Shown here: piece by piece, positions 50,359 to 50,777 of the stretch
How positions within the stretch are numbered: position 1 is the stretch's first letter
Layout of the letters: every line of letters begins with the position of its first letter
Assembly: GCF_001434835.1 (NCBI RefSeq)
Contig: NZ_AZDV01000026.1
Coordinates: 62,001-126,000 of the forward strand
Direction: 5' to 3'
Source: Levilactobacillus acidifarinae DSM 19394 = JCM 15949
GTDB taxonomy: Bacteria > Bacillota > Bacilli > Lactobacillales > Lactobacillaceae
DNA length: 64,000 bases
Made by a program: the position numbers and the translations under genes
The notes under the pieces: generated by a model
What the model saw: only the letters and a program-made list of their open reading frames with translations
What the model was told of the DNA's origin: nothing
The model's database searches: none

Positions 50359-50388
50359 ATCAATTTAATTGTTAACAATTAAATTGAT
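50359..50388. promoter_or_regulatory. 30-bp perfect AT-rich palindrome (probable operator)
   Basis: The half site ATCAATTTAATTGTT is followed directly by its exact reverse complement. It ends 9 bases before the -35 of the HesB-fold gene. No T run follows, so it is not a terminator. Probably the binding site of a dimeric repressor or activator; the regulator is unknown. Confidence 0.7.
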
Positions 50389-50397
50389 GTATTCCGC

Positions 50398-50427: not shown

Positions 50428-50474
50428 GGAAACTGAAAACGGATTCACAGTCTGGTTAAGAGGAGCATAAAACT

Positions 50475-50777
50475 ATGAAGATTACGGTAACGGATGCAGC
50501 AAGCAAGTGGTTCCGCGAAGAAATGGGCATGACGGGACGGGGAATTCGCTTCTTTGGCAAGGTCTACGGGAAAACGCCCGTGCACCAAGGCTTCTCGTTG
50601 GGGATGACCCCCGACGATGCGCCCCGTGATCCCGTGGTCACCGAAAAAAAGGACGACGTGACCTACTACATTACTGAAGGTGACGAGTGGTTCTTCGTGG
50701 GGTACGACCTTACGGTGGACTATGATCCCAAGACGGACGGTCCGACCTACATCTATACGGAAAATGGCGAACTTTAG
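50475..50777 (+). CDS. HesB/IscA-fold (YneR-like) protein without cysteines
   Basis: 100 aa. N-terminal KITVTDAASKWFREEMG and the beta-rich core RFFGKVYG...GFSLGM, VTYYITEGDEWFFVGYDLTVDYDP match the HesB-like/YneR group of the iron-sulfur biosynthesis fold. No Cys is present, so the three Cys that hold Fe-S or iron in IscA are missing; the function may differ. GAGGAG RBS. It stands alone with its own promoter, the adjacent palindrome and a strong terminator. Confidence 0.85.
   Translation: MKITVTDAASKWFREEMGMTGRGIRFFGKVYGKTPVHQGFSLGMTPDDAPRDPVVTEKKDDVTYYITEGDEWFFVGYDLTVDYDPKTDGPTYIYTENGEL

Follow-up and report, generated by a model that had tools for sequence, protein, structure and literature searches.

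A 30-bp perfect palindrome stands upstream of hesB1, the gene for a small HesB-fold protein, in the window (the whole 64-kb stretch of DNA that was analysed), and it is real, beyond what chance produces. On the evidence of its sequence it is very probably a genuine operator of a kind already known. We consider it likely that it is the operator of the one close OhrR-type regulator encoded in this genome, with the reduced regulator repressing hesB1 and oxidation releasing it (Table 1).

Table 1 Features of the hesB1 region in the window and the basis for each assignment.
Feature	Position	Strand	Basis
30-bp perfect palindrome, proposed OhrR-type MarR operator	50359..50388	no strand	sequence, shuffles, motif at the regulator's own promoter
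Left 11-bp repeat CAATTTAATTG, OhrR-box core	50361..50371	no strand	sequence and box consensus
Right 11-bp repeat CAATTAAATTG, OhrR-box core	50376..50386	no strand	sequence and box consensus
-35-like TTGTCA of promoter P2	50398..50403	+	inferred promoter; CTTGYCA conserved in most relatives
-10-like TATAAA of promoter P2	50422..50427	+	inferred promoter
TGAAAACGGATTCA, conserved element from the predicted transcription start	50434..50447	+	conservation in hesB1 leaders
hesB1, 100-aa cysteine-free HesB-fold protein, YneR/PdhI-like	50475..50777	+	sequence, homologues, model fold comparison

A perfect palindrome upstream of hesB1

The palindrome, ATCAATTTAATTGTTAACAATTAAATTGAT, is made of two 15-base halves and is laid out as CAATTTAATTG-TTAA-CAATTAAATTG, that is, as two 11-bp CAATTWAATTG repeats flanking TTAA. 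Its nearest competitor among the perfect palindromes of the window has 9-base halves. Shuffling gave halves of at most 12 bases, both when the 64 kb were shuffled 40 times with dinucleotides preserved and when the surrounding 61 nt were shuffled 20000 times. These values bear out the initial annotation, a reading of the letters alone, which had called a chance origin very unlikely; it had also placed the palindrome 9 bases before a -35 element, and positions 50389-50397 do separate it from TTGTCA. Elsewhere in the 2.9-Mb genome, no further match to the 30 bp was found at up to 3 mismatches.

An OhrR-box-like motif before an OhrR-type regulator gene

In PMC6034001, the B. subtilis OhrR box is given as TACAATTNAATTGTA, and each half of the palindrome agrees with 11 of its 14 specified letters, the inner 11 bp being complete. 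The initial annotation, which saw no match to the Fur/PerR, cre, GlnR or NrdR consensus, had left this box out of consideration. A doubled-box site was also found 25 nt before the gene of a MarR-family regulator that lies outside the window (G000:C2:728557-729033; 159 aa, with a cysteine at position 14). This arrangement is general in Levilactobacillus: the motif occurs 25–27 nt before the regulator start in 34 of 35 genomes, and ATTGTATACAAT is present inside the box at 34 of the 35 ohrR promoters, the exception being a partial site of 9.0 bits. Every one of the 35 genomes has one orthologue of the regulator at 81% identity or more.

Across an alignment of 13 proteins, two of them paralogues at ~40% identity, Cys14, Y28 and Y39 do not vary; we take Cys14 to be the reactive N-terminal cysteine, and Y28 and Y39 to be the accompanying conserved tyrosines, of OhrR. 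The closest solved structures are 5hlg/5hlh/5hli (presumably the protein AbfR), 4hbl, OhrR, MgrA and SarZ (E 1e-30 to 2e-22). The best NCBIfam match of the regulator is the curated OhrR model NF052638, at 116.7 bits and so under its 200-bit cut-off. The classical OhrR target is the gene of an OsmC/Ohr peroxidase, and no site within 5 mismatches was present at the three OsmC loci of the genome. Because of this sub-threshold score and the absence of a site at the OsmC loci, we call the regulator OhrR-type rather than OhrR.

A second OhrR-like gene (~40–50% identity) stands beside a RecQ-like gene in several species and was preceded by the same motif in both loci read (L238, L248). One regulator gene of Latilactobacillus curvatus, from the plasmid collection, is preceded by ACAATATAATT-type repeats.

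Distribution of the motif in the genome, the genus and the family

With up to 3 mismatches, the doubled box occurs at five places in the window's genome as against one for a reversed-pattern control, and these places include the regulator promoter, a second HesB-fold gene (hesB2; PF01521, E 7e-27) and an NADH-oxidase-like gene. Looser patterns approach noise in this genome (6 matches versus 5 in the control; 22 versus 18 at up to 2 mismatches), and from them we cite only places before redox genes that are also seen in relatives. Weaker sites, with 2 or 3 mismatches, are carried by glutathione-reductase-like and NADH-oxidase-like promoters. Two further matches are left out of the proposed targets, one at a greA2-like gene (L036; ~330 nt from the gene) and one at an Spx-like gene (L193; ~200 nt).

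HesB promoters were scored with a weight matrix derived from ohrR sites only (19 distinct sequences and their reverse complements), with shuffles as the null and their 99% level as the threshold. By this measure 30 of 35 hesB2 promoters and 15 of 35 hesB1 promoters exceed the threshold, and 11 of the 35 hesB1 promoters score below zero. The best hesB1 match lies 85–89 nt before the ATG in 21 of the 35, with 8 of these 21 under the 99% level. No hesB1 site scores higher than that of the window, with 29.7 bits against a largest null value of 14.9. The initial annotation had looked to near relatives for conservation of the palindrome, and on this point the outcome is divided: perfect symmetry is confined to this genome, whereas in its two closest relatives, whose HesB proteins are 99% and 98% identical, the corresponding position has a weaker copy, of 17.8 and 7.5 bits respectively.

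Across the genus, ATTGTNNACAATTNAATT was found at 103 places with at most one mismatch, versus 10 for the reversed pattern. Its 41 exact places comprise 34 at ohrR, two that are the window palindrome read both ways and five others, namely one at hesB1, two at hesB2, one at a glutathione-reductase-like gene and one at a gene for a secreted protein. We inspected 24 further loci, a hand-picked subset of the places. In nine of them the site lies in front of, or is flanked by, genes for regulators or redox proteins: OhrR-like paralogues (two loci), glutathione-reductase-like proteins (two loci) and, at one locus each, glutathione peroxidase, pyruvate oxidase, an NADH-dehydrogenase-like protein (~210 nt off, a divergent gene being nearer), an NADH-oxidase-like protein and a nitroreductase. 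The other 15 sites precede genes for secreted or surface proteins, transporters, others or nothing recognisable.

Exact or one-mismatch sites occur before secreted- or surface-protein-like genes at several loci (L228, L220, L243, L241, L250, L252, L256, L192), and the surface-like genes scanned include those of MucBP/LRR proteins, of proteins with a KxYKxGKxW signal and of a Matrixin-like protease. Such sites are either chance matches or an unexpected branch of the regulon.

In the family, the exact 19-mer ATTGTNNACAATTNAATTG is found in 13 of 161 genomes and 4 of 40 genera (reversed control, one place), so this exact form is rare. Outside Levilactobacillus it occupies seven places, four of them upstream of OhrR-type MarR genes. 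In two of the four, from two genomes of another genus, it stands 30 nt before the gene and at least 23 bp are identical to the window (TTTAATTGTTAACAATTAAATTG); in the other two it occupies the interval that separates the OhrR-type MarR gene from a divergent gene for a membrane protein. The remaining places have downstream of them a PF01521 gene, a pyruvate oxidase gene and an alpha/beta hydrolase gene, one each. The initial annotation had proposed a search for a matching regulator gene near other copies, and these four places supply one. In the plasmid collection, at least 279 records match the regulator (E limit 1e-20) and 8 match the HesB1 protein, while the 701-nt promoter region had no match there.

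The hesB1 promoter and the proposed mode of regulation

The two boxes of the predicted promoter P2 are separated by 18 bases, and the palindrome spans about -75 to -46 relative to the predicted P2 start, with its centre ~60 bp upstream. In many relatives a YATAAT overlaps the right half-site of the hesB1 promoter, which suggests a weak upstream promoter, P1, beneath the operator; no good -35 for P1 was seen in the window's lineage. Downstream, TGAAANCGN(A/G)T(T/A)CA is present in the hesB1 leaders of all 35 genomes of the genus (exact in 29), and no element of the TGAAAACGGATTCA type was found in hesB2 or ohrR upstream regions. The TGAAAACGGATTCA element also occurs in one Secundilactobacillus leader and is partly symmetric (TGAANNCGNNTTCA); perhaps it is a second operator or a leader element. 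Separately, an AGTTWGTGAAA or TTGTGAAA block, which to our eye resembles half a Rex site, lies near OhrR-type sites in several promoters (hesB1 of many relatives; L037 at ~1463; L228/L220/L243) and is absent from the window's own hesB1.

Under the proposed mechanism, the reduced regulator would bind the doubled CAATTWAATTG box and repress, and it would let go once Cys14 is oxidised, whether by peroxide or under aeration, so that the HesB-fold gene would be induced. The ohrR site overlaps the spacer and -10 of its core promoter (TTGCTA-17-TACAAT, assigned by eye) and the hesB2 site directly follows the -10 TATAAA, positions that fit repression. At hesB1, in contrast to the core-covering site at ohrR, the palindrome sits upstream of the -35, and repression there might work by covering the region above the -35, or by covering P1.

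The least secure part of this mechanism is whether binding represses or activates. Related thiol-switch MarR proteins can be activators at some promoters, and the same regulator could conceivably activate hesB1 from about -60 of P2. The distance of the site centre from the predicted P2 start and the retention of the position relative to P2 in 21 of 35 species speak for activation, but the motif lies over the core promoter at ohrR and abuts the -10 at hesB2, both repression-type positions, and the YATAAT across the right half-site in many relatives also argues against it; we regard activation as unlikely.

The identity of the regulator bears on the argument as well. Another dimeric protein, a different MarR member or one from another family, might bind the palindrome, its likeness to ohrR sites then being a convergence of AT-rich dyads. 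G+C-poor dyads do readily resemble one another, most species have a stronger site at ohrR than at hesB1, and 24 MarR-type matches in the genome exceed the Pfam cut-off. Yet among the 28 loci with a MarR match, the motif is present at the regulator's own locus only; a matrix built from ohrR sites only places the window site far above its best null; and the at least 23 identical bp in two genomes of another genus stand directly before an OhrR-type gene. A different regulator is improbable in our judgement. That the palindrome is an RNA hairpin, a terminator remnant or a chance palindrome with no protein partner is very hard to sustain, since, although its RNA form has a folding energy of -13.1 kcal/mol (z -5.8) and it follows a terminator-like site of greA, the copy in a near relative (L003) retains the motif and folds no better than shuffles (z -0.14), no T-run follows the palindrome, a promoter lies downstream and a half of 15 exceeds the shuffle maximum.

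HesB1 resembles the pyruvate dehydrogenase inhibitor YneR

The gene hesB1, whose neighbours are greA and a YfhO gene, is present in all 35 Levilactobacillus genomes. Its nearest named homologue is in L. zymae DSM 19395 (99% protein identity; the window's own record was possibly excluded), and homologues at 60–66% identity occur in Lentilactobacillus and Secundilactobacillus. The Secundilactobacillus similis homologue has an apparent one-base frame slip near codon 11 (L179 2481-2515), which reflects either a sequencing error or a decayed gene.

HesB-fold proteins are usually assigned to Fe-S assembly. The description of this one as a HesB-fold protein without cysteines proved correct: there is no cysteine in its 100 aa, and the best model is HesB/IscA-like. 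The cysteine count is likewise zero in 12 aligned homologues, and the Pfam Fe-S_biosyn score of HesB1 (22.8) is under the cut-off of 26.3. The conserved cysteines expected of an A-type Fe-S carrier are absent.

A search of HesB1 against the PDB by sequence gave nothing useful. One of five AlphaFold models was confident (pLDDT 85; the other four, 38–47), and its best structural match is B. subtilis YneR (Foldseek E 2e-9, Z 14.5), with an rmsd of 1.6 over 90 residues and 38% identity, the YneR entry being an integrative model. Z scores against SufA and IscA are 10.2 and 10.1. HesB1 is also 33% identical to the product of a YneR-like gene of B. amyloliquefaciens. By its modelled fold, then, HesB1 is YneR-like.

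According to PMC10090944, YneR is PdhI, an inhibitor of B. subtilis pyruvate dehydrogenase (PDH) E1, whose overexpression impairs growth on pyruvate, and changes at R30 and Y31 abolish the effect. These two residues align with K29 and V30 of HesB1, which has a Tyr at 31, and the loop G28-H37 containing K29, V30 and Tyr31 is invariant in 12 aligned proteins. Inhibition of pyruvate dehydrogenase by HesB1 is plausible from this modelled likeness. A motif scan of the window and of the loci then examined found no PDH genes.

Implications for the oxygen response of lactobacilli

We tentatively suggest, as a possibility short of an expectation, that an OhrR-type regulator which senses peroxide or oxygen governs a PdhI-like PDH inhibitor, and that pyruvate oxidase belongs to the same regulon in some relatives. 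If so, oxidant sensing would retune the pyruvate node via a protein brake on PDH plus Pox synthesis, and a PdhI-type protein would gain a regulatory input, of which we found no description in the literature searched. Likewise, the partial listings and passages of that literature contained nothing that connects OhrR or the palindrome motif with a gene of the HesB-fold or YneR kind.

According to PMC9963975, oxygen raises both the expression and the activity of pdh in L. brevis ATCC 367; this statement indicates that the genus has PDH and disfavours a simple model in which PDH is off under oxygen. Possibly, the PDH brake is co-induced with pdh under oxygen. Published oxygen responses, as far as the excerpts go, fit the proposed regulon: pox, npr, gshR, ohrA and ohrR are oxygen-induced in L. 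buchneri (PMC4521753), and the oxygen-response proteins of L. rhamnosus include OhrR, Pox, Npr, Nox and a 10.5-kDa Fe-S_biosyn protein (PMC9963975).

The target gene adds interest beyond that of the palindrome alone. What was an orphan palindrome can now be tested as part of a thiol-switch regulon of lactobacilli used in food fermentation, and a cysteine-free HesB-fold protein gains a candidate regulator and a candidate PdhI-like activity.

Comparison with known systems

The initial annotation had suggested a specific, undescribed regulatory unit. Its specificity is upheld by copies at the genes of one regulator family, the HesB-fold gene included; the unit is, on the other hand, not undescribed, as it matches both the OhrR box and a motif of L. 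plantarum. With the B. subtilis OhrR box the window palindrome has in common the inner CAATTNAATTG, complete in both halves, and the setting, an AT-rich inverted repeat that also stands before a gene whose OhrR-type product has an N-terminal cysteine. It differs from that box in its outer letters and, at hesB1, in its place upstream of the -35. The regulator itself has its best solved-structure relatives among the one-cysteine MarR regulators OhrR, MgrA, SarZ and the protein of 5hlg/5hlh/5hli.

In L. plantarum, oxygen-induced genes have agTTGTGCACAAtttaatt in common, and the MarR protein Lp_0889 was hypothesised to be its regulator by comparison with B. subtilis OhrR (PMC3389018, in part). The window site shares 15 of the 19 letters of this motif and departs from it at both central letters. 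Unlike the L. plantarum motif, the window copy is perfectly symmetric, and no HesB-fold gene is among the targets named in the available part of that paper; pyruvate oxidase, NADH oxidase and glutathione reductase are kinds of target found in both. As for HesB1, it has its fold in common with the HesB/IscA/SufA Fe-S carriers and lacks the cysteines with which they hold the cluster, while the YneR-like gene of B. amyloliquefaciens sits beside plsY and hesB1 beside greA and the YfhO gene.
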